A stretch of DNA of 31,052 nucleotides. It comes from a virus. The notes under the pieces were generated by a model, which saw nothing but the letters and a program-made list of their open reading frames with translations, was not told the origin of the DNA and did not search any database. Below are positions 2,860 through 22,955 of the stretch, in pieces; position 1 is the stretch's first letter, and every line of letters starts with the position of its first letter. The position numbers and the translations under genes are program-made. The DNA lies in the IMG/VR virus record IMGVR_UViG_3300035171_000033, positions 1-31,052 of that record; one strand, written 5' to 3'.

Positions 2860-5800
2860 GTGGCCGATCCGGGGCTTGACGCGATCGTGAGGCAACGCCA
2901 GCGCAGCAAGCACGTTGGCGAGCTCGCGTCCGGCGGCGTCTCGACGTCTCACGGCGCGATCGTCGTCGGCGCACCCCGACACCACGGCGGCGGCATTTTC
3001 GGCGCAATCGGCCACGTCATCGGGCAGACAGGATCTGATCTGTACCACGCCGCCGTCAACACCCCCGCCGGACTGGTCTACCTCGGCAAAGGATTGGCGA
3101 CGCACCCGTTGCGTACCGGTGAGCAGGTCGTCCAGTCAACCGTCGACGACTTGAAGCACCCGTTGCGGCATCCCGGGTACACGCTGCTGGACGTCCTCGG
3201 GATCGCAGGCGGTGTCGCCGGCGTCGCGACGAGGGCCGGGGCGACAGCGGCGGCGCTCGAGCGGGGCGCGTCCGCGGGCGAGATCGCGCGTGCGGCGTTG
3301 ACGCGTGGGGTTCCGGCGGCGAGGGAGCTTCGTAGCGGCGGGCTGACGGTGAAGGTGCCAGCGTCGAAGGCGCCGCTGACGCGGTTGGCGCAGAAGGGTA
3401 CGGACACGCTGCTGCACCGTGCCGCCGAGAAGAACCCCGCTGGCCGTGGAGCGCGCGTGCTCGACCGTAAAATCGGGAAGGCCGTCACCGAGCAAGGCCG
3501 TGCGCAGGAGGCGATCTTCAAAGGCCCCGGCGCAGCGTTGGTCGCGATCGGCCGCAAACTCAACCCGGCCGAGCAGAAGGCGTTGCAGGTCGTCGCCGAG
3601 GAAGCACCGTTGCACGAGCGGATCACGGCAGCGTCCGCACGCGTGACCGGCGCGAAAGACGCGAAGGCACGCGCCCGGCATCAGGCGGAACTGGATCTGC
3701 TGCACCAGGCGAAGCCGCTCCTCGGAGACGAAAACGGCAAGCCGACGTTCACGGGCAAGACCGCGCCCAAGCTGGCCGGCGTCCTGACGAAGATGCGCGG
3801 CGTCGCCGGCAGCCGCGAAGAACTTCTCAAAAGCCTCGAGCTGCTCACGGACGAGTCGATCCAAGGCCGCAAGACCGACGCGGCAAGGATCGCGATGGGC
3901 GGAGCCGCTAACGTCCCGGCGCCGCCCGGTCCGCACGCCCAGGCTGTCAAGTCGTTCGCCCAGTACCTGCGCAACCACCCGGATAAGGCCGCCGCCGAGT
4001 ACTTCCACCGCCACGGCGACGTCATCGACACGGACCTTGTCCGTAGCCTTTCGACTGACTACGAGCAGAAGCCGCACCTGCGCGCCGCCATGTCGGCGCC
4101 GATGCACGAGTCGGCTTCGGCGTTCGCGAAGGAACTGTACGCGCGGAAGCTCGCGGAGCCGGCAAAACACGGCATCGTCGAGATCACATCCGGCGGCGCC
4201 GGAGCCGGCAAGAGCACCGTACGGCAACTGTTTCAGCGGCCGGCAGACGTTGTCTTGGACACGACGCTAAGCGACCCGCGCACCGCGGCGACGAAGATCG
4301 AGCAGGCGCTGAAATCGGGCCGCCGTGTCGTCGTAACATACGTCTACCGGCCGTCCGCGGAGGCGCTCAGGGCGGCTGTGGCGCGCGCCGCGCACGACAA
4401 GCGGCCCGTGCCGCTCAACTACTTCGCAAAGTCCCACGTCGGCGCGAACCGCACCATCCGTGCGCTCGAGCGCCGCTACAGGAACGATCCGCGCGTCGAC
4501 ATCCGCATCGTCCGCAACGAGGCAGGGAAGTCTCACGAAGCCACGCTCGCTGACATCCCGAAGCTCACGTACAATGAGGTCGCTGATGAAGTCACAGGCA
4601 CCTACCAGCACGAAGTCGCCGCAGGCAACGTCCCGAACGACGTCGCGGCCGGGTTCGATGACGGACGAGGAGTTCAAGGCCCGAAACGACAGCCAGATCG
4701 CGGTGGTCGTCAAGGGCTTGAACGAGCTCGGCCGGCGCAACCCGCCGCGCTAGCAGACTCGTTTGTCGCGTCGCCTGACGCGCTGCGCATTCCTGACGTC
4801 GCGAAGAAGCCGCCGAAGTCAGGGTCGGTCAAGACCGGTTCCGGCGGGATCGTTGGCCGTCCCAGGGAGCCGGGGTCGGTGACGCACCGTTACACCGGCG
4901 CGCTGCGCGAACACGCGCTGCGGCGCCAGGACACCGCGCAGCTGGTCGGAGAATCCGGCATCGAAGCAGGCCGGTACGCCGCCCTCCACCACGTCGTCGA
5001 CATGGCGAAGCAGGCGTCGCGCGCGGAGCCGTTGCGGCCGAACGACCTTGCCGTACGCCTCGACGAGATGGGCAAGAACGAGAAAATGCCTGCGGCGTTG
5101 CGCGCTTATACAGCCGACCCGCACGAGTTCTTCCAGCACGCCACCGCCGCCGAGAAAAACACGGTGTTCGAGCAGCTCCGCTCCCGCCTCGTAATCGACC
5201 CGAAGAAACTCAACCCGGAGCAGGCTGCCGAGTTTCAGCGGCTCCACGACGAGGGCAAGATCGGGTTCGTCCCCCGCGCGATCCTCGGCGACTTCGCGAA
5301 GCCGCAAGCGCCCCTCTCGGCGGTCGCCGGCACAAGGGCGGTGCGGAGCGTGGACGCGATCAACAACGCGTCCAGGTTCGCGATCCTCTACCTGAAGCCC
5401 GCCTACGCGATCCCGAACCTGCTCGGCAATGCCGCCCTGAACATTGTTCAGCAGGGCTTCGCCGCCCCCGCGAACCTTGGCCGGGCGGTCGCGCTGACGT
5501 GGCGGATCGGGCCGGAACTTTCCGCGCGCGTCGACACATTGATGGGCGAAGGGTTTGCGCGGGCGGTGTCCGCGCACGGACAGGGAGCGCTCTCTAAGAC
5601 GGTTGACCGCGCCGCGTCGATATGGTCGAAAGGCGTCGACCAGCCGTTCCGCCGTGCCGCGTTCATCCACGAAGCACGGGCCGCCGGCTACCGCACCCCG
5701 TCCCAGCTCGAGAGGCTCCTCACCGACCCCGCGCTGAACGACGAGCTCGTTCATGTGACAGTCCGCGCGAACCGTGAGATCATCGACTACGCCGCCCTCA

Positions 5801-6435
5801 CACCGGCCGAGCGGGAGATCGTTCGGCGTGTTGTGTTCTTCTACCCGTGGGTGAAGGGCTCCACGAGGTACGCCGCCCACTTCGTGAAGGAGCACCCTGT
5901 CGGCGCGGGTGTCGCCGGGCAGGTTGGCAAGCAGGGGCAGCAGTGGACACAGGACACGCTCGGCCCTGTCCCGTCCTATTTGGAAGGGATTTTCCCGGTT
6001 GGCGACAAGGTGTCGAACCCGGCGTCGGCGGCGATCCTGAACACTCCGGCGCAGGTCGGCGCCGCTATCGCCGGTCTGTTGCACGGCAACGTGTCGGAGG
6101 CTGCGCAGCTGTCGAACTTCGCGTCACCGGCGTTGAATCTCGCGCTATCCGAGATCGCCAGGCGCAACCTTTCGACCGGCGCCGCCTACCCCGGGAAAGC
6201 ATCAGGGCTGGACATCGCGAAGGACACGTTGGTGAACCGGTTGCCGCAGGCGACGTTGCTGCACAACATCGAGGCTGCCGTGTCGGGCAAGGGCGGGTCT
6301 AAGCTGTATCCGCCGTCCGTCATGTCTGCGATCGAGCAGTTCCTTGTCGGGTCGATCGCGCCGCGCAAGGTCAACCGGTCACGGCTCAGGGCGTTGGCGA
6401 TCCAGGAGCTGCGGGCGCAGCAGCACGCCCGCTAG
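2860..6435 (+). CDS. Giant polyvalent-type virion protein with embedded zeta-toxin-like kinase
   Basis: 1191 residues from GTG 2860, with GAGGGG upstream. The N-terminal 100 residues contain Gly/Ala-rich, membrane-active-looking stretches. Residues about 435-600 form a P-loop domain: GGAGAGKST at 445-453 (G445, G450, K451, S452), then VVLDTTLSDP and an Arg-rich helix. This order matches zeta-toxin / nucleoside-kinase-like proteins. The C-terminal 450 residues are a separate conserved-looking region (YLKPAYAIPNLLGNAALN, then VVFFYPWVKGSTRYAAH), as in large phage proteins thought to enter the host with the DNA. Known zeta proteins phosphorylate UDP-GlcNAc or nucleotides; the substrate here is unknown. 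Third-position GC shows a roughly 95-nt switch to the +1 frame at 4658-4753 inside this ORF, so it may be two products or an overlap. Confidence 0.8.
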   Translation: MADPGLDAIVRQRQRSKHVGELASGGVSTSHGAIVVGAPRHHGGGIFGAIGHVIGQTGSDLYHAAVNTPAGLVYLGKGLATHPLRTGEQVVQSTVDDLKHPLRHPGYTLLDVLGIAGGVAGVATRAGATAAALERGASAGEIARAALTRGVPAARELRSGGLTVKVPASKAPLTRLAQKGTDTLLHRAAEKNPAGRGARVLDRKIGKAVTEQGRAQEAIFKGPGAALVAIGRKLNPAEQKALQVVAEEAPLHERITAASARVTGAKDAKARARHQAELDLLHQAKPLLGDENGKPTFTGKTAPKLAGVLTKMRGVAGSREELLKSLELLTDESIQGRKTDAARIAMGGAANVPAPPGPHAQAVKSFAQYLRNHPDKAAAEYFHRHGDVIDTDLVRSLSTDYEQKPHLRAAMSAPMHESASAFAKELYARKLAEPAKHGIVEITSGGAGAGKSTVRQLFQRPADVVLDTTLSDPRTAATKIEQALKSGRRVVVTYVYRPSAEALRAAVARAAHDKRPVPLNYFAKSHVGANRTIRALERRYRNDPRVDIRIVRNEAGKSHEATLADIPKLTYNEVADEVTGTYQHEVAAGNVPNDVAAGFDDGRGVQGPKRQPDRGGRQGLERARPAQPAALADSFVASPDALRIPDVAKKPPKSGSVKTGSGGIVGRPREPGSVTHRYTGALREHALRRQDTAQLVGESGIEAGRYAALHHVVDMAKQASRAEPLRPNDLAVRLDEMGKNEKMPAALRAYTADPHEFFQHATAAEKNTVFEQLRSRLVIDPKKLNPEQAAEFQRLHDEGKIGFVPRAILGDFAKPQAPLSAVAGTRAVRSVDAINNASRFAILYLKPAYAIPNLLGNAALNIVQQGFAAPANLGRAVALTWRIGPELSARVDTLMGEGFARAVSAHGQGALSKTVDRAASIWSKGVDQPFRRAAFIHEARAAGYRTPSQLERLLTDPALNDELVHVTVRANREIIDYAALTPAEREIVRRVVFFYPWVKGSTRYAAHFVKEHPVGAGVAGQVGKQGQQWTQDTLGPVPSYLEGIFPVGDKVSNPASAAILNTPAQVGAAIAGLLHGNVSEAAQLSNFASPALNLALSEIARRNLSTGAAYPGKASGLDIAKDTLVNRLPQATLLHNIEAAVSGKGGSKLYPPSVMSAIEQFLVGSIAPRKVNRSRLRALAIQELRAQQHAR
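4658..4753 (+). CDS. Overlapping +1-frame ORF inside the polyvalent gene
   Basis: 31 codons from ATG 4658 to TAG 4753, in the +1 frame relative to the surrounding gene. Nearly every third base in this frame is G or C (30 of 31 sense codons), while the host frame over the same bases drops to about 40 percent. The peptide is balanced and charged (begins MTDEEFKARND, ends LGRRNPPR), whereas the host-frame peptide here is Gly/Arg/Gln-rich and shadow-like. No clear ribosome binding site precedes the ATG. It could be a small overlapping gene, the tail of a +1-frameshifted 630-residue zeta-domain product, or the trace of two compensating indels. Confidence 0.4.
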   Translation: MTDEEFKARNDSQIAVVVKGLNELGRRNPPR

Positions 6436-8828: not shown

Positions 8829-8917
8829 GGCGGGGTACTCAAGTGGTCGAAGAGGCCCGGTTGCTAACCGGGTAGGGCTGAAAAGCCGCGAGAGTTCAAA
8901 TCTCTCCCCCGCCGCCA
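8829..8917 (+). tRNA. tRNA-Ser (GCU anticodon)
   Basis: Acceptor stem GGCGGGG (8829-8835) pairs with CCCCGCC (8907-8913). Anticodon loop TTGCTAA gives anticodon GCU, decoding AGC/AGU. A long variable arm and T-arm GAGAG-TTCAAAT-CTCTC are typical of class II serine tRNAs. The 3' CCA is encoded (8915-8917). Confidence 0.93.
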
Positions 8918-8918
8918 G

Positions 8919-9006
8919 GGATGGTCAAGCCGACAGATGGCGACGGCACCTGTCTCGAAAACAGGCGAGGCGTAAGCCCTTGAGAGTTCGACCCTCTCAC
9001 CATCCG
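8919..9006 (+). tRNA. tRNA-Ser (CGA anticodon)
   Basis: Acceptor GGATGGT (8919-8925) pairs with ACCATCC (8999-9005), discriminator G. Anticodon stem CCTGT/ACAGG holds loop CTCGAAA, anticodon CGA, decoding UCG, a codon used heavily in this window. Long variable arm and T-arm GAGAG-TTCGACC-CTCTC are present. CCA is not encoded, unlike the tRNA that ends two bases upstream. Confidence 0.93.
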
Positions 9007-10006: not shown

Positions 10007-10043
10007 CGGGGGCAGACTGCCTTTCCGCGTGTGTTTGCGATAG

Positions 10044-10063
10044 GGGGTAATGGTATTTACCCC
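10044..10063. promoter_or_regulatory. Secondary operator-like inverted repeat
   Basis: GGGGTAA (10044-10050) and TTACCCC (10057-10063) form a perfect 7-bp inverted repeat with a 6-bp spacer. Its right arm overlaps the left arm of the main operator, so two regulator dimers could compete or cooperate. It lies on the repressor-gene side. Confidence 0.5.
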
Positions 10064-10093
10064 AGGGGGCTTGACGTAATGCCCCCTGGGGTA
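10058..10093. promoter_or_regulatory. Main palindromic operator of the lysogeny switch
   Basis: A perfect 13-bp inverted repeat, TACCCCAGGGGGC (10058-10070) and its complement (10081-10093), is separated by 10 bases. The spacer contains the -35 box of the rightward promoter and the right arm abuts the -10 box, so binding would block early transcription. The near-symmetrical centre also gives a weak leftward promoter (TTACGT, TAAATA), so one site could control both directions. Confidence 0.75.
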
Positions 10094-10097
10094 TACT
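10071..10097 (+). promoter_or_regulatory. Early rightward promoter, probably leaderless
   Basis: TTGACG (10071-10076) and TATACT (10092-10097) are separated by 15 bases, slightly short of the usual 17. The ATG of the Cro-like gene is at 10108, ten bases after the -10 box, where transcription should begin. No ribosome binding site is present, so the mRNA would be leaderless or almost so, common in Actinobacteria. It would drive the whole early operon. Confidence 0.7.
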
Positions 10098-10107
10098 TTG
10101 TGTCCCT

Positions 10108-10356
10108 ATGGAGTCGGGGACAGCACGCGAGACGTACGCCGCCTGGCTCGCCCGGCAGATGACGGAGCGCGGATTCACGCAGAGGTCGCTAGCGCGCAAG
10201 TGGAATTCCGACGACCCGGAGACGGCGCGTCGGTCGATCAGGCGCTACCTCGACGGGATGGTCCCGATCACGAGGACACGTGAGTCGCTAGCCCGGGCAT
10301 TGGGTGCGCCCGAGTCAGGGCCGCAGAGCGATAGCGAAGACAAGGAGGGCGATTGA
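10108..10356 (+). CDS. Cro-like small HTH regulator
   Basis: 82 residues from ATG 10108, directly downstream of the operator/promoter. Residues about 10-68 form a helix-turn-helix domain (WLARQMTERGFTQRSLARKW, then RSIRRYLDGMVPITRTRE and LARALGAP), similar in layout to the divergent repressor's ALGVP-type helix. The tail is acidic. As first gene of the early operon facing a repressor, it is probably the Cro counterpart that turns down repressor synthesis. An excisionase role is an alternative. Confidence 0.8.
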   Translation: MESGTARETYAAWLARQMTERGFTQRSLARKWNSDDPETARRSIRRYLDGMVPITRTRESLARALGAPESGPQSDSEDKEGD

Positions 10357-14387: not shown

Positions 14388-14710
14388 AGCGCGACCACTA
14401 CCGGCAGGGCGACATCCTCATCCTGCCCGTCACCGGCATCCCCGACAACACCGTCCCGGTGCAGCGCGAGCAGGGGAAAGCGGTGCTCGCGCACGGCGAG
14501 GTCACCGGCCACCACCACGCCATCGCCGACGACACGGCTGAGCTCGTCACGGCTGAGCAGGCCGCCGAGTTGTACCTGATCGTCCACGGCACAGATCCGG
14601 TCTCGCTCACCCATCAGGAGCACGCAACGATCACCATCGACCCCGGTTCGTATCAGGTGGTTCGGCAGCGCGAGTACACGCCGGAGCGGATCCGCCAGGT
14701 GCAGGACTGA
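14384..14710 (+). CDS. Small His-rich conserved protein paired with DUF6745-like gene
   Basis: 108 residues from ATG 14384, with AAAGGA upstream. Strand-rich pattern: RQGDILILPVTGIP, VLAHGEVTGHHHAI with three adjacent His residues at about 46-48, LYLIVHG, SLTHQEHATITIDPGSYQVV, then RQREYTPE. It resembles a widespread uncharacterised family that I recall next to DUF6745-type repeat proteins; that association is from memory. The His cluster could bind metal. It abuts the repeat protein (TGATG), so the two are probably co-translated partners. Confidence 0.7.
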   Translation: MKRDHYRQGDILILPVTGIPDNTVPVQREQGKAVLAHGEVTGHHHAIADDTAELVTAEQAAELYLIVHGTDPVSLTHQEHATITIDPGSYQVVRQREYTPERIRQVQD

Positions 14711-15828
14711 TGGCGAAGCGAATCGAGAAGCTTTCAAAAGAAGCCGTCGCGCTTATCCCCGTCGTGCGCGACGAGTGGCTAGCGGCCGGGTTGTCGACCG
14801 CCCCGACCGACCGTGCTGCGGCGCTCCGCGGTGTCCACGCAGCCTACGAGGACGCGGGATTACCTCATCCGATCCTAGTCATCTGGCTCCGGTCACCGTT
14901 TGCAGGCGCGATTGGCTCAGCCATGCTGAGCCAATCGCGGGATCAGGTGGGGGCTCAGGTGCGGGCTCAGGTGTGGGCTCAGGTGCGGGCTCAGGTGGGG
15001 GATCAGGTGTGGGCTCAGGTGCGGGCTCAGGTGGGGGATCAGGTGCGGGCTCAGGTGGGGGATCAGGTGTGGGCTCAGGTGGGGGCTCAGGTGCGGGATC
15101 AGGTGCGGGATCAGGTGTGGGCTCAGGTGGGGGCTCAGGTGCGGGATCAGGTGCGGGCTCAGGTGGGGGATCAGGTGCGGGATCAGGTGGGGGATCAGGT
15201 GGGGACCGCGGTTTGGGGACAACACGACGCCGGATGGCTCGCGTTCTATGACTTCTTCGGGCGCGCCTACAAACTCAAGGGGACAAAGCGGCTCGAGGGG
15301 CTGAATGAGGTCGCACGGTCGGCTGGCTGGTGGTGGCCATTTCGGAACGCGGTGATCCTTACCGAGCGGCCGATCAGTCTTGCGCGCGACGATGAGGGAC
15401 GCCTGCACAGCGAGTCAGGCGCGGCGCTTCTCTATTCGGACGGCTGGGGAATCTGGTCGGTTCACGGCGTCCGCGTGTCGCAGCAGACGGTCGACGCGCC
15501 CGAGACGTTGACTGTCGCACAGATCCTTGGTGAAGAGAACGCCGAGGTGCGACGGGTGATGATGGAGCGGTTCGGCGCCGACCGGCTGATGCGGGAAGCG
15601 AACGCAGAGGTCGTCTCACAGGACGACTACGGGAAGCTGTGGCGGCTCCCGGTCGAGGGCGACGAGCCGTTGGTGATGGTTGAGGTTGTGAACTCGACAC
15701 CGGAGCCTTCGGGCGAGTTCAAGGATTATTGGTTGCGTGTGCCGCCCGATGTCGAGTCGGCGCATGGTGCGGTGGCGTGGTCGTTCGGGATGACTGTGAA
15801 GTCGTATCGGCCGGCGGTGGAGACATGA
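14710..15828 (+). CDS. DUF6745-like protein with QV tetrapeptide repeats
   Basis: 372 residues from ATG 14710, overlapping the previous TGA. N-terminus about 1-75: HAAYEDAGLPHPILVIWLRS. Residues about 77-164 are 22 perfect tetrapeptides of the form [R/G/W][D/A]QV. The C-terminal 200 residues hold SAGWWWPF, AEVRRVMMERFG, NSTPEPSG and LRVPPDVESAHGAVAW, the conserved core I associate with DUF6745. The repeats would suit a regular beta-solenoid or amphipathic helix. The biochemical role of the family is unknown to me. DNA encoding the repeats is extraordinarily uniform and abuts a 14-bp hairpin. It overlaps the next gene by ATGA. Confidence 0.75.
   Translation: MAKRIEKLSKEAVALIPVVRDEWLAAGLSTAPTDRAAALRGVHAAYEDAGLPHPILVIWLRSPFAGAIGSAMLSQSRDQVGAQVRAQVWAQVRAQVGDQVWAQVRAQVGDQVRAQVGDQVWAQVGAQVRDQVRDQVWAQVGAQVRDQVRAQVGDQVRDQVGDQVGTAVWGQHDAGWLAFYDFFGRAYKLKGTKRLEGLNEVARSAGWWWPFRNAVILTERPISLARDDEGRLHSESGAALLYSDGWGIWSVHGVRVSQQTVDAPETLTVAQILGEENAEVRRVMMERFGADRLMREANAEVVSQDDYGKLWRLPVEGDEPLVMVEVVNSTPEPSGEFKDYWLRVPPDVESAHGAVAWSFGMTVKSYRPAVET
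14907..14939. repeat. 14-bp perfect hairpin abutting the 12-bp repeat array
   Basis: Arms CGCGATTGGCTCAG (14907-14920) and the exact complement (14926-14939) flank a 5-base loop CCATG. It lies inside the coding sequence and its right arm touches the first repeat unit. The arms share GGCTCAG with the units, so it may derive from the array or promote slippage or recombination at it. Confidence 0.85.
14938..15201 (+). repeat. Tandem array of 22 twelve-base units
   Basis: Each unit is Ngg-gNt-cag-gtg. Across all 22 units only two of twelve positions vary: the first base (C 10, G 8, T 4) and the fifth (A 10, C 12). Both changes alter the amino acid; no silent difference occurs anywhere in 264 bases. 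Every TGG unit carries GCT. The array stays in frame and codes [R/G/W][D/A]QV. Confidence 0.97.
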
Positions 15829-19210: not shown

Positions 19211-19548
19211 GCGGCAGGCGGCACAGCATCTATTTCGTGCAGGAGGCAACGGGCGGCCCGATCAAGATCGGGATGACGACCACGACCATTGAGAAGCGTC
19301 TGAGCTACCTCAGGCGCGAGTACGGAGACTTGTTCTTGCTCGCGGTGATCTCGGACGCTGTCCCGGCTGTCGAGATGCACTTACACGATCGCTTCCATGG
19401 CGGCCACCTTGAGGGCGAATGGTTCGATGAGGAAACTGAAGGCCTCCGGGAGTTCATCGCTGATGTTGGCCGTGGCGAGGTCGGTGACCGCGTCGAGCGG
19501 ATCATCGCAGTGCATACCGCTCATGCCTCCGACACGGAGAGCGCGTGA
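19207..19548 (+). CDS. GIY-YIG / T5orf172-type nuclease-like protein
   Basis: 113 residues from ATG 19207, overlapping the previous TGA. SIYFVQEATGGPIKIGMT is a GIY-YIG-like opening. RLSYLRREYGDLFLLAVI and VEMHLHDRFHGGHLEGEWF give the Arg and the E/H-rich helix typical of the T5orf172 (MUG113) branch. Such proteins occur in phages as small nucleases or DNA-binding factors. It overlaps the integrase start. Confidence 0.75.
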   Translation: MSGRRHSIYFVQEATGGPIKIGMTTTTIEKRLSYLRREYGDLFLLAVISDAVPAVEMHLHDRFHGGHLEGEWFDEETEGLREFIADVGRGEVGDRVERIIAVHTAHASDTESA

Positions 19549-20564
19549 CCGTCGCGACCATCACGCTCGGCGAGGCGTCCCGTATGCTCCGCGATGCCCT
19601 GAAGGACACGAGCTACCGCTCGACTCCCCTGGGGCTCGAAGTCGCGCGCTACATCCGGTGGAAGCGCACTGAATGGGGAGCCGCTAAGGACACGATCCGC
19701 GACTACGAGCCCGCCCTAGCTCGGCTTGCACTTTTCTTCGCCGATCTCGAGCTGCGCGACTTCGAAACCCCGGTAGGTGCTGAACGGCTGCGCGAGTGCT
19801 GGGACCATCACTGGGGAGACAGGTCGGCACGCACACGCGCGAAGATCCTTTCGATCTGGCGCGACTTTTTCGACTGGGCGATACGGGAGAACCGCGGCAT
19901 CCACGGCAACCCTGCCCGTGTGCTCCGGTCACCGAAACGCCGCGGCGTGAAGCGCGAACCGTTCGCCGGCTCGTTCGTCGACCTCGTTGTCGCAGCGCAG
20001 GACTATCTCCCCGACCAGCTCGGCGTCCGCCTGATCTTGCAGTACGGGCTACGGCGTGCCGAGGTGGCCGGGGTCAGGTTCCGCGACTTCGACTTCGAAC
20101 GGCAGCAACTCACGATCGTCGGCAAGGGCGGGAAACCTCGGCAGGTGCCGCTTCCCGACCCTGCGTTCTGGCGTGACCTCGGCGCGGTCGAACTTGATCT
20201 AGGAGGACGTGCGTCGTGCCTTGACAGGTTCCTCGTCGCGCCGCGCCGCAAGGTCGGGATGAAGACGACACATTTCCACCATCACGGCTTCAAACCGAGG
20301 TCTGTGCACACCTGGTGGTACGACCGTCTCGAAGCAGCTGGCCTGTGCGGAGACAAGGAATCCGGGACACGGAAGGGCTTGAACATGCACCGGGGCCGCC
20401 ATACCGTCGCGACGGAGATTCTGCGCGGGTCGGGGAACCTCGTTGCTGCTCAGAAGCTGCTCGGCCACGCTGATCTGTCGACGACGGAGGAGCATTACGC
20501 GTCGTTCGACACCGAGGACGTCGCCACGGTGCTTAGGTCTATCCGGGGCCACGAGGAGCTGTAG
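19545..20564 (+). CDS. int: Tyrosine integrase
   Basis: 339 residues from GTG 19545. An N-terminal core-binding region (about 30-125) with helical SAM-like pattern is followed by the catalytic domain. R170 lies in YGLRRAEV, K in IVGKGGKPRQVPLP, H282/R285 in MHRGRHT, H308 in LLGHADLS, and nucleophile Y318 in EEHYASF. All catalytic residues are present. No obvious AP2-type arm-binding domain stands out. It is the last gene of the early operon and is followed within 36 bases by a tRNA/tmRNA 3'-end-like sequence, its likely attP. Confidence 0.92.
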   Translation: MTVATITLGEASRMLRDALKDTSYRSTPLGLEVARYIRWKRTEWGAAKDTIRDYEPALARLALFFADLELRDFETPVGAERLRECWDHHWGDRSARTRAKILSIWRDFFDWAIRENRGIHGNPARVLRSPKRRGVKREPFAGSFVDLVVAAQDYLPDQLGVRLILQYGLRRAEVAGVRFRDFDFERQQLTIVGKGGKPRQVPLPDPAFWRDLGAVELDLGGRASCLDRFLVAPRRKVGMKTTHFHHHGFKPRSVHTWWYDRLEAAGLCGDKESGTRKGLNMHRGRHTVATEILRGSGNLVAAQKLLGHADLSTTEEHYASFDTEDVATVLRSIRGHEEL

Positions 20565-20599
20565 ATGTTCCCGGCGATTTCGCTTGGTCAAGCCAAAAG

Positions 20600-20624
20600 T
20601 GGAGGCGGCGGGAATCGAACCCGC
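20600..20624 (-). other. attP core: tRNA or tmRNA 3'-end identity
   Basis: Read on the minus strand this is a T-arm GCGGG-TTCGATT-CCCGC followed by the acceptor half CGCCTCC and A, exactly a tRNA or tmRNA 3' end. No matching 5' acceptor half GGAGGCG is found upstream, so this is not a complete gene but the segment that restores the host gene on integration. The preceding 30 bases (to about 20650) may also belong to the core. A tmRNA target is possible from the resemblance of the end to ssrA. Confidence 0.82.
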
Positions 20625-20740
20625 GATTGGTGCCCGCAGCTTTCGCTCAACCATGCGGGTAGAGCCCTTCGAAGCGGCTCCTCGGCTGACTTTGTAACAC
20701 CGGCCGCGCCCCTCTTGTGGCGCTCCCCCATCTTCTCGCT

Positions 20741-20819
20741 TTCGACGGCCGGGCGTTCGAGCGTCGAGCCCGCATCCGTACGGGCTCCCCTCCGCGCTAC
20801 CGGAGGGTCGGCCGTCGAA
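20741..20819 (+). ncRNA. Four-way-junction (cloverleaf) structured element
   Basis: An 11-bp outer stem (20741-20751 with 20809-20819) encloses three directly adjacent hairpins. These are 20752-20765 (5 bp including two G-U pairs, loop TCGA), 20766-20787 (7 bp GAGCCCG/CGGGCTC, loop 8) and 20788-20807 (7 bp CCCTCCG/CGGAGGG, loop 6). Only one base (20808) is unpaired at the junction. The G-U pairs would be A-C mismatches on the other strand, favouring a plus-strand RNA. It is not a tRNA: no TTC loop or normal D-arm. It lies between attP and the Rpf-like gene, so it could be a leader element, a small RNA, or an attP cruciform. Confidence 0.6.
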
Positions 20820-20850
20820 TCTCGTTCGCGCTCGTCCACGGTTGCCCGTG

Positions 20851-21282
20851 ATGCCCGCCCCCGGGCGGAGGAATCGCTGTCTCACAAGGGAGATCGTTCT
20901 GCGGTACCTACTCGCCATAGCGGCGGCGTGCCTGCTCGCGCTGCCCAACCTCGCACGCTCAGGAACCCGTCCGGTGCCGCCGTTCTGGTGGGCGCTCGGG
21001 ACATGCGAGACCGGCCACATCGGCGAACCCGGGGATGGAGCCCCACGCTTCGACTGGGGCCGCTACCACCGGCACCTGGAAGGCACGCTCTACGAGGGCT
21101 TCGTCGGCTTCGCCGCGAGCACTTGGCGACTCTGGGCCGGCCATGTGGGCGTCCGCTACGCGCACGCGTGGCAGGCCCCGCCGATGGTGCAAGTCCGCGT
21201 CGCGCGGTACGGCCTCTCCGTCGGCGGCTATTGGGGATGTCTTCACTCTCACCCGGAGATCTACTCGCTCCCGGGACGGTGA
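20851..21282 (+). CDS. Secreted Rpf-like transglycosylase
   Basis: 143 residues if started at ATG 20851. In-frame TTG 20842 and GTG 20848 are alternatives. An AAGGGAG site at 20886-20892 lies six bases before an in-frame CTG (20899) that would begin exactly at the signal segment LRYLLAIAAACLLALPNLA, so the start is uncertain. After cleavage the protein reads WALGTCETGH (likely catalytic Glu), then YEGFVGFAASTWRLWAG and GGYWGCLHSH, the order seen in resuscitation-promoting-factor domains. Such proteins cut peptidoglycan and wake dormant Actinobacteria. Its place beside attP suggests a lysogen-expressed gene. Confidence 0.65.
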   Translation: MPAPGRRNRCLTREIVLRYLLAIAAACLLALPNLARSGTRPVPPFWWALGTCETGHIGEPGDGAPRFDWGRYHRHLEGTLYEGFVGFAASTWRLWAGHVGVRYAHAWQAPPMVQVRVARYGLSVGGYWGCLHSHPEIYSLPGR

Positions 21283-21302
21283 CCGCTCTTTTTTTTGGGC
21301 GG
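21283..21302 (+). terminator. T8 tract with flanking inverted repeat after Rpf-like gene
   Basis: Eight T residues (21289-21296), the only such run noticed here, directly follow the Rpf-like stop codon and are flanked by CCGCTC and GGGCGG (6 pairs, one G-T). The T run sits in the loop instead of after a stem, so terminator activity is uncertain. The remaining bases to 21379 hold only a weak 22-codon ORF (TTG 21315) that overlaps the next GTG. Confidence 0.35.
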
Positions 21303-21379
21303 GCACCTAGACGATTGAGGGGGCCGCTCGTCGCTGCGCTGTATGGGATGGCTCGGAGCGCCCCGCCGGCGGTGACGGC

Positions 21380-21580
21380 GTGAGCTACGCGACGTTCCTT
21401 GATCGCAAGCGCTCACGGTTCGTCGGTGACGGCTTCGACGGAGACCCGTCCGGGTGGCTTTACCCGTTCCAGCGCGACATCGTCGAGCTCGCATATGCGT
21501 CGCCGGCGCACACGTTCTGGCCGCCCGCGGTGCTGCTGCTGAACGAGCGGGACACCGAACGCGGCGAGGCCGAAGCGTGA
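21380..21580 (+). CDS. Short protein resembling the N-terminus of a phage helicase/methylase
   Basis: 66 residues from GTG 21380. YATFLDRKRSRFVGDGFD and LYPFQRDIVELA look like the opening of large phage SNF2-type helicase or DNA methylase proteins, where FQRDIV is followed by a Walker A loop. Here the sequence changes to SPAHTFWPPAVLLLNERD and stops, so no ATPase part exists. It is either a truncated remnant with an open frame or a stand-alone adaptor. It overlaps the next gene by GTGA. Confidence 0.55.
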   Translation: MSYATFLDRKRSRFVGDGFDGDPSGWLYPFQRDIVELAYASPAHTFWPPAVLLLNERDTERGEAEA

Positions 21581-21789
21581 CCGGGGAACCGACCTACATG
21601 CCGCTGGACGACCGCCACGAGGCCCTCTTCGCCTGCCGGCTGTGCGGGCAGACCGTCGCGGTCGGCCCCCACCACGACCATATCGAGCCGGACGGCTTCG
21701 CGTGCGCACGGTGCCGCACCGAGAAGCCGGGGGCGTCCGATCTGGCCCAGGCGATCGGCAGAGCACGGAAAGCACAGGCCGCGGCATGA
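21577..21789 (+). CDS. Small zinc-finger protein
   Basis: 70 residues from GTG 21577. CRLCGQT, then HHDH and CARCRTEK provide a four-cysteine plus His cluster at about residues 20-48, with a helical Ala/Arg tail. Resembles small phage zinc-binding proteins near replication genes; function unknown. Confidence 0.62.
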   Translation: MTGEPTYMPLDDRHEALFACRLCGQTVAVGPHHDHIEPDGFACARCRTEKPGASDLAQAIGRARKAQAAA

Positions 21790-21845
21790 GCATCAACGTA
21801 CTTCACGCACCCACACGGGCCCGGTTCCGCGGGTGGGGCGAATGA
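21786..21845 (+). CDS. 19-residue coupling ORF
   Basis: ATG 21786 overlaps the previous TGA, and its TGA overlaps the ATG of the nuclease gene. The peptide (INVLHAPTRARFRGWG) has no motif. It is probably important only for translational coupling. Confidence 0.3.
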   Translation: MSINVLHAPTRARFRGWGE

Positions 21846-22171
21846 CCGAGGCCGAGTTGCAGTCCGCGGTGATCGAGACTGCCCGCCTCTTCCACTGGCG
21901 GGTCGCGCACTTCCGCCCCGCGCTCACCGCGAAAGGCTGGCGGACTCCGGTCGAAGGAGACGGCGCCGGCTTCCCCGACCTCGTGCTCGTAAGGCGGCCG
22001 GTGACGCGCCGTGCCAGGCTGATCTTCGCCGAGTTGAAGTCCGCTACTGGGAATCTGTCGGTGGAGCAGCAGCAGTGGCTGGCCGTCCTTGAGCCGGTCG
22101 CGGAGACGTTCCTGTGGCGGCCCGCCCACTGGACTAGCGGTGCGATCGAGGAGGTGCTCAGAGCCGACTGA
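21842..22171 (+). CDS. VRR-NUC nuclease
   Basis: 109 residues from ATG 21842. TEAELQSAVIETARLFHW, then GDGAGFPDLVLV and FAELKS give the E, D and E-x-K residues of the PD-(D/E)XK VRR-NUC family, and QQQWLAVLEPVAE is the usual following helix. Stand-alone phage VRR-NUC proteins act on branched or cruciform DNA. It is the last gene before the replication initiator-like gene. Confidence 0.87.
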   Translation: MTEAELQSAVIETARLFHWRVAHFRPALTAKGWRTPVEGDGAGFPDLVLVRRPVTRRARLIFAELKSATGNLSVEQQQWLAVLEPVAETFLWRPAHWTSGAIEEVLRAD

Positions 22172-22179
22172 TAGTGCGC

Positions 22180-22203
22180 GCGCGCCCCTCGAAGAGGGCG
22201 CGC
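22180..22203 (+). repeat. Hairpin after VRR-NUC gene
   Basis: GCGCGCCCCTC (22180-22190) pairs with GAGGGCGCGC (22194-22203) over ten pairs with one bulged C, loop GAA, followed by TTCCCCC. It matches the hairpin plus TTCCC pattern of the early-operon junctions. Weak or factor-dependent termination is possible. Confidence 0.6.
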
Positions 22204-22241
22204 TTCCCCCACCCTCGACCCCCTTGAAAGGAGCCGCTCCG

Positions 22242-22955
22242 GTGGCATGGCTTGATGATCGGTATTGGTGCCATCCGAAGATCGTGTCGTTGTCCGATGG
22301 TGCGTATCGGGCGAACACGAACGCGATCGCGTATTGCGCGGGGATGGGAACCGGCGGTGTGCTTGATCAGGCGCAGCAGCGGGTTGTCGGGGCGCAGGCG
22401 AAGCACCGCCGTGAGCTGGTGGCGGGCGGCGTGTGGGACGACCTTGGCGGCGGCCGCATCCAGATCCATGACTGGGATGACCACAACAGTTCGAGGGACC
22501 GTCGCAGGGAGTCGGACAGGGAGCGTAAGCGGAGGCAGCGCCAGCGTGACCGCGAGCCATCTGTCACAGCGGAAGTCACACAGGACGTCACGCGTGACAT
22601 CGCCGTGACAGACACCGTGACGGAGGCCGTGACGTCACGCAGACCGGCGCGCGTTGAAGGTAGTGAAGGAAGTGAAAGAACTTCAAGTGCTCTAGATCTT
22701 CAACGCTCTACTAGCTACGAGAGCACCGAATCACACAACGAACCAGACCTGAGCCCGGCACTCCGCAAGCTCGCACTAGCCACCGGCGCACGAACACGAG
22801 ACGACATCCAGAAACTCACCCGCGCCGCACGCTCCCACCGCTCCTCCGAGTCCGACATCCAACACGCCATCGACGCCTGCACCGGACCAGGTGTGCAATC
22901 CCGCCTCGCCGTAGCCCTCGCCGAACTCGTCAAGAGAAGCCGGAAAGCAGCATGA
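22242..22955 (+). CDS. Replication initiator-like protein
   Basis: 237 residues from GTG 22242, with GAAAGGAG eight bases upstream. The N-terminal about 70 residues (WLDDRYWCHPKIVSLSDGAY, then LDQAQQRVVGAQAKHRRELV) match the opening winged-helix domain of phage replication proteins that pair a DNA-binding head with a DnaD-like tail. A highly basic segment (RRRESDRERKRRQRQRDRE) follows, then a repetitive VT region encoded by 12-bp iterons, then a C-terminal helical domain (LRKLALATGARTRDDIQKLT). The likely origin lies inside this gene. It ends in an ATGA overlap with the next gene. Confidence 0.7.
   Translation: MAWLDDRYWCHPKIVSLSDGAYRANTNAIAYCAGMGTGGVLDQAQQRVVGAQAKHRRELVAGGVWDDLGGGRIQIHDWDDHNSSRDRRRESDRERKRRQRQRDREPSVTAEVTQDVTRDIAVTDTVTEAVTSRRPARVEGSEGSERTSSALDLQRSTSYESTESHNEPDLSPALRKLALATGARTRDDIQKLTRAARSHRSSESDIQHAIDACTGPGVQSRLAVALAELVKRSRKAA
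22563..22638. repeat. Iteron array, candidate replication origin
   Basis: GTCAC begins at 22563, 22575 and 22587 (12-bp spacing). GTGAC begins at 22605, 22617 and 22629 (12-bp spacing), so two sets of three face each other around the palindrome GTCACGCGTGAC (22587-22598). GTGACGTCAC closes the array. It is within the initiator-like gene and translates as VTxx repeats. Confidence 0.75.
22651..22750. other. A+T-rich stretch beside iterons, possible unwinding element
   Basis: About half of these bases are A or T, against roughly one third around it. A 9-bp inverted repeat GCGTTGAAG (22651-22659) / CTTCAACGC (22698-22706) and AGTGAAG-type direct repeats lie inside. The layout iterons plus AT-rich stretch inside an initiator gene is that of lambda-type origins. 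Confidence 0.55.

Follow-up and report, generated by a model that had tools for sequence, protein, structure and literature searches.

A 79-nucleotide (nt) sequence in a 31-kb virus record, the whole of which (31,052 nt) was analyzed and is referred to here as the window, adopts a compact four-armed fold that is real, statistically unusual, and an orphan. The fold lies on the integrase-coding strand, beyond a phage attachment site (attP) that corresponds, by sequence, to the 3' end of host ssrA (tmRNA), an assignment that is new here. From its position, we infer that the fold may act in cis, as an RNA structure in the 3'-terminal part of the integrase transcript, serving as a terminator or processing element in the manner of lambda sib/tI. 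This is the explanation that we favor, and we do so tentatively.

The architecture of the element (Table 1) matches exactly the pairing in the original prediction, which gave an 11-bp stem around three hairpins (5, 7, and 7 bp) and left a single junction base unpaired. All 11 pairs of the closing stem are Watson-Crick, internal loops are absent from the fold, and its unpaired bases sit in terminal loops, with the exception of the single junction position (20808). The accompanying statement that the element is not a tRNA also stands, as no tRNA was detected at the fold.

Table 1. Coordinates of the four-way-junction element, the attachment site, and the neighboring genes (window positions, unless a locus is named)
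Feature	Position	Strand	Basis
Tyrosine integrase	19545..20564	+	PF00589, E 2.8e-16; PHROG 1
18-nt direct repeat, left copy; candidate integrase arm site	20567..20584	.	Repeat flanks core; similar pair in L065
attP core, corresponding to the 3' end (T arm, acceptor strand) of host ssrA/tmRNA, read on the minus strand	20597..20625	.	Weak tmRNA match; host-genome motif; integrase homologues abutting ssrA
18-nt direct repeat, right copy; candidate integrase arm site	20630..20647	.	Repeat flanks core
Four-way-junction element, 79 nt: 11-bp closing stem and three abutting hairpins	20741..20819	+	RNAfold; pair list
Closing stem, 5' arm (pairs with 20809-20819)	20741..20751	+	Exact 11-nt inverted repeat
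Hairpin 1: 5 bp including two G-U pairs, loop UCGA	20752..20765	+	
Hairpin 2: 7 bp, 8-nt loop	20766..20787	+	
Hairpin 3: 7 bp, 6-nt loop	20788..20807	+	
Closing stem, 3' arm	20809..20819	+	Exact 11-nt inverted repeat
Shine-Dalgarno-like AAGGGAG, 6 nt before CTG	20886..20892	+	Sequence
Rpf-like (transglycosylase-like) protein, signal-peptide-like start, probable CTG start	20899..21282	+	Homologues; PF06737; fold matches
Cellular Rpf-like leader	L214 1842-1981; L215 1351-1489	- (L214); + (L215)	Two sequences only

As plus-strand RNA, the element folds at -52.3 kcal/mol in RNAfold, compared with -35.7 +/- 3.4 kcal/mol in dinucleotide shuffles (z -4.9), and none of 200 such shuffles was as stable. 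The minus-strand RNA of the same region reaches -52.7 kcal/mol (z -4.4), with hairpin 1 shrinking to 2 bp, and DNA parameters give a z of -4.8. The earlier argument that two G-U pairs favor a plus-strand RNA was borne out modestly, in that these pairs break on the minus strand. Within the 273-nt gap that follows the att core, none of 300 shuffles matched the energy of the best 79-nt fold; when the test was repeated on a smaller scale, with a stretch of 260 nt that differs slightly from the gap, 1 of 60 shuffles reached it. Between 20565 and 20898, GC content is flat across codon positions and codon scores are poor, indicating that this region is non-coding. When the whole window was dinucleotide shuffled and folded as a single strand, a tight junction of three simple hairpins with an energy of -45 kcal/mol or lower arose in 1 of 120 cases. 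Further, in other loci totaling ~757 kb, the tight junction that came closest had a weaker energy, -38.7 kcal/mol, and lay inside a coding gene. Folds at 10036 and 10631 of the window have an equal or better GC-corrected stability, but they are hairpins; stability alone is not unique in the window, whereas the compact four-way form is.

The genomic setting is that of a temperate phage. The window encodes, on its plus strand, an integrase, a VRR nuclease, a replication initiation protein, a terminase, and a portal protein, and the fold occupies +177 to +255 past the integrase stop codon on the same strand, with the attP core between them. This core gives a weak tmRNA match on the minus strand (Rfam, permissive threshold), and its 29-mer closes the tmRNA genes of genomes titled Thermoleophilia, Gaiellaceae, and Actinomycetota, as well as those of other phyla. 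Homologous integrases adjoin ssrA in genomes from the class of the Gaiellaceae genome, and in two of these genomes, a second copy of the core, a few kb from the integrase, shows where an integrated element ends on its far side; judging from these second cores (L205, position 4433; L208, position 2773), genomes G087 and G232 contain short elements integrated at ssrA. Hence, the phage has a core identical to the ssrA 3' end and an integrase of a family that is located beside host ssrA, both of which are features of ssrA-integrating temperate phages, and the window presents the unintegrated attP. The integrase homologues suggest that the host is probably a Thermoleophilia-type actinobacterium. 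The core is flanked by direct repeats, and L065 shows a similar pair around its core. A phage tmRNA at the att core was considered and rejected, as the match consists only of the core and a poor 5' part.

Several other features of the window were observed. At 10040-10110, a 13-bp inverted repeat, TACCCCAGGGGGC/GCCCCCTGGGGTA, surrounds TTGACG and is followed by TATACT, and an ATG at 10108, just after this repeat, opens a small possible DNA-binding protein; this site resembles an early promoter and operator with a nearly leaderless message and is a likely lysogeny switch. Two adjacent tRNA-Ser genes (GCT and CGA) occupy 8829-9006, a 12-bp unit, GCGGGCTCAGGT, is repeated 22 times in tandem at 14937-15201, within the open reading frame at 14710-15828, and the 1,191-amino-acid protein encoded at 2860-6435 has a Zeta-toxin (PF06414) match in its middle region.

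We searched for relatives of the fold and found no homologue in phage records or plasmids. In viral contigs, which were searched with three patterns in all, the outer-stem pattern had 23 matches, none of which adopted the junction described here, and the hairpin patterns had no matches; a covariance model built from the single sequence returned, besides the window itself, only chance-level matches across 86 sources and 399 genomes, although exact patterns detect only close copies, and a one-sequence model is weak, such that a diverged relative could escape. L065 and L002, the phages whose integrases are closest and whose att core is the same, have no comparable fold after attP. In both, the next gene appears to start ~45 nt after the core; the non-coding stretch after attP is longer by ~200 nt in the window phage, and the fold is contained in this additional DNA. 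The fold is also missing from the two far ends of integrated elements that could be read, and an integrase search of genome contigs returned no relatives. A four-way fold at 5020-5102 of L002, which is weaker (-38.7 kcal/mol), was judged to be due to chance; it is antisense to a sigma-like gene and contains many G-U pairs.

The explanation that we favor draws on a precedent in phage lambda, in which sib lies beyond attP, at a similar distance, and is processed by RNase III. The expression of lambda int, and with it the level of Int, is controlled by sib as a site distal to int (PMC2951348), and the title of the 1989 study by Plunkett and Echols, as cited in PMC5371410, is in line with this layout and processing. 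In the window phage, plus-strand transcription from an early operon would pass through the integrase and attP and into the four-way junction, which would either stop the polymerase or be cut by a double-strand RNase, thereby setting the stability of the integrase mRNA. Given that the core corresponds to the ssrA 3' end and that integrase homologues lie against ssrA, the phage DNA beyond the core would move to the other end of the prophage. Integration, which cuts at attP, would itself uncouple the fold from the integrase, because attP lies between them, and integrase messages would be spared in the prophage. We infer each of these steps, namely, the transcription of the region, termination or processing at the fold, and the regulatory consequence. 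Consistent with such a role, the fold is significant and compact, it lies in a non-coding gap, and the order of integrase, attP, and fold is kept on one strand; nearly all of the likely genes from ~10.1 kb onward are on the plus strand, and there is a promoter/operator-like site near 10.1 kb.

Other observations count against a sib-like role. No terminator-like site was found in 19400-22300, and the fold is not followed by a U-run. The gene that comes next shares this strand and could be expressed only from a promoter of its own or after processing, and a scan for sigma-70-type sites found no promoter-like site for it. Conservation is also lacking, in that nothing comparable stands after attP in the nearest relatives by integrase. 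The fold thus shares with sib/tI the feature of a structured element downstream of int, beyond attP, and on the int-coding strand, but it does not have an intrinsic terminator, composed of a hairpin and a U-run; because of this, it is said only to work like sib/tI and is not classed as a member. A stronger version is decidedly doubtful: in it, the fold would define a new RNA class, with a compact four-way junction, and would control the integrase mRNA of a phage that infects uncultured Thermoleophilia and integrates at ssrA, with integration uncoupling the two.

Ranked second, although unlikely, is the possibility that the fold is a 5' leader of the downstream Rpf-like gene, stabilizing its message or modulating its translation, with a riboswitch as the strongest form of this idea. 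The probable identity of the gene agrees with the original prediction, which had placed the element between attP and an Rpf-like gene. Although the window protein itself has no family match, PF06737 matches three of the four aligned proteins, these being the three homologues of the window protein (best E 3.9e-5), and RpfB and RpfC are the top structural matches, albeit weak ones (E 0.4-0.7) from a low-confidence model of the window protein. The homologues are 45-49% identical to it, and clear ones occur in only three genomes among 399 members of the class and 129 members of the order; searches of viral contigs and phages for Rpf-like relatives found none. All three homologues (L214, L215, and L216) also have a CTG at the aligned position, and a CTG start preceded by a Shine-Dalgarno sequence seems common to the phage gene and these genome homologues. 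The fold is on the same strand as the gene, 80 nt before the probable CTG start, and leader control is plausible in this gene family, given that L214 and L215 have a nearly invariant 143-nt leader before the cellular Rpf-like gene that is predicted to mask the Shine-Dalgarno sequence. However, that leader is unrelated to the one in the window. The cellular covariance model has no match in the window, and the local similarity is at p ~0.12, on which grounds a leader common to the window and cellular genes was rejected. In the window, the Shine-Dalgarno sequence is left uncovered, and the only alternative pairing (20789-20795 with 20865-20871) is less favorable by ~8 kcal/mol. With respect to the earlier suggestion of a riboswitch-like element or structured leader, an Rfam scan of the window at the gathering threshold returned only the tRNA at 8829 and no family for the fold, a permissive scan assigned it to none either, and the cellular homologues lack the fold. 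All but one of the unpaired bases sit in hairpin loops, and there is hence no obvious ligand pocket; since, in addition, access to the Shine-Dalgarno sequence is not controlled, a riboswitch is unlikely. The L214/L215 leader, which has no Rfam family, is a better riboswitch-like candidate than the 79-nt fold, though it is known from two sequences only.

Chance, or a decayed and functionless sequence in a GC-rich gap, ranks third and is rather unlikely. No homologue in the collections searched, and hence no covariation, supports the fold, it was picked from a whole window of possibilities, and other strong folds exist in the window, as do weak tight junctions in the coding DNA of relatives. Weighing against chance are the rarity of similar junctions among shuffled single strands, set against a real fold that falls in a non-coding gap, and the failure of gap shuffles to reach its energy. 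A free-standing phage small RNA is improbable. The element is compact and stable, within a non-coding gap, and other actinobacteriophages, such as the cluster A mycobacteriophages (PMC10986025), have non-coding RNAs whose role is unknown, but neither promoter-like nor terminator-like sites were found in the region, and no relative was found. Finally, a DNA element for integration, replication, or packaging, whether a cruciform or a protein-binding palindrome, is very unlikely: the earlier suggestion of a cruciform affecting integration keeps the significance of the fold under DNA parameters and its location ~95 nt beyond the right candidate arm site, but it is weakened by phages and elements that have the same att core and a homologous integrase without the fold, by the dependence of hairpin 1 on two G-T pairs, and by a 57-nt spacer between the outer arms, which makes for a poor cruciform.

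If the sib-like reading is true, phages of an actinobacterial class from which few phages are known would join enterobacterial phages in having integrase controlled, in dependence on integration, by a structured RNA beyond attP, and they would do so with a different RNA architecture. Even without this reading, the site connects the phage with integration at ssrA in a host of the Thermoleophilia type. In this respect, it resembles the ssrA-integrating prophages of Mycobacterium abscessus (PMC8092301) and the Dehalococcoides islands (PMC3146451), which are likewise reported to have a core at the ssrA 3' end and an adjacent tyrosine integrase; the window phage differs in its probable host class, Thermoleophilia, and in having a 79-nt fold interposed between attP and the following gene.

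Among known RNAs, the riboswitches of the SAM-I/SAM-IV clan are also four-way junctions of similar size, but the fold scores only 13.6 of the 38 bits required for SAM-IV, and on the other strand, which we take as a chance match. The ydaO (c-di-AMP) riboswitch (RF00379) of actinobacterial rpf genes likewise precedes an Rpf-like gene; compared with it, the window fold is much smaller, without a conserved core or internal loops, and is unmatched, both at the gathering threshold and at E <= 10. The closest likeness in layout is to lambda sib/tI, which is also a structured RNA downstream of the integrase, beyond attP, on the same strand, at a similar distance, and parted from the gene by integration. 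Whereas lambda sib/tI is a simple processed hairpin region with a U-run terminator, the element described here is a four-way junction and a candidate for termination or RNase III cutting.
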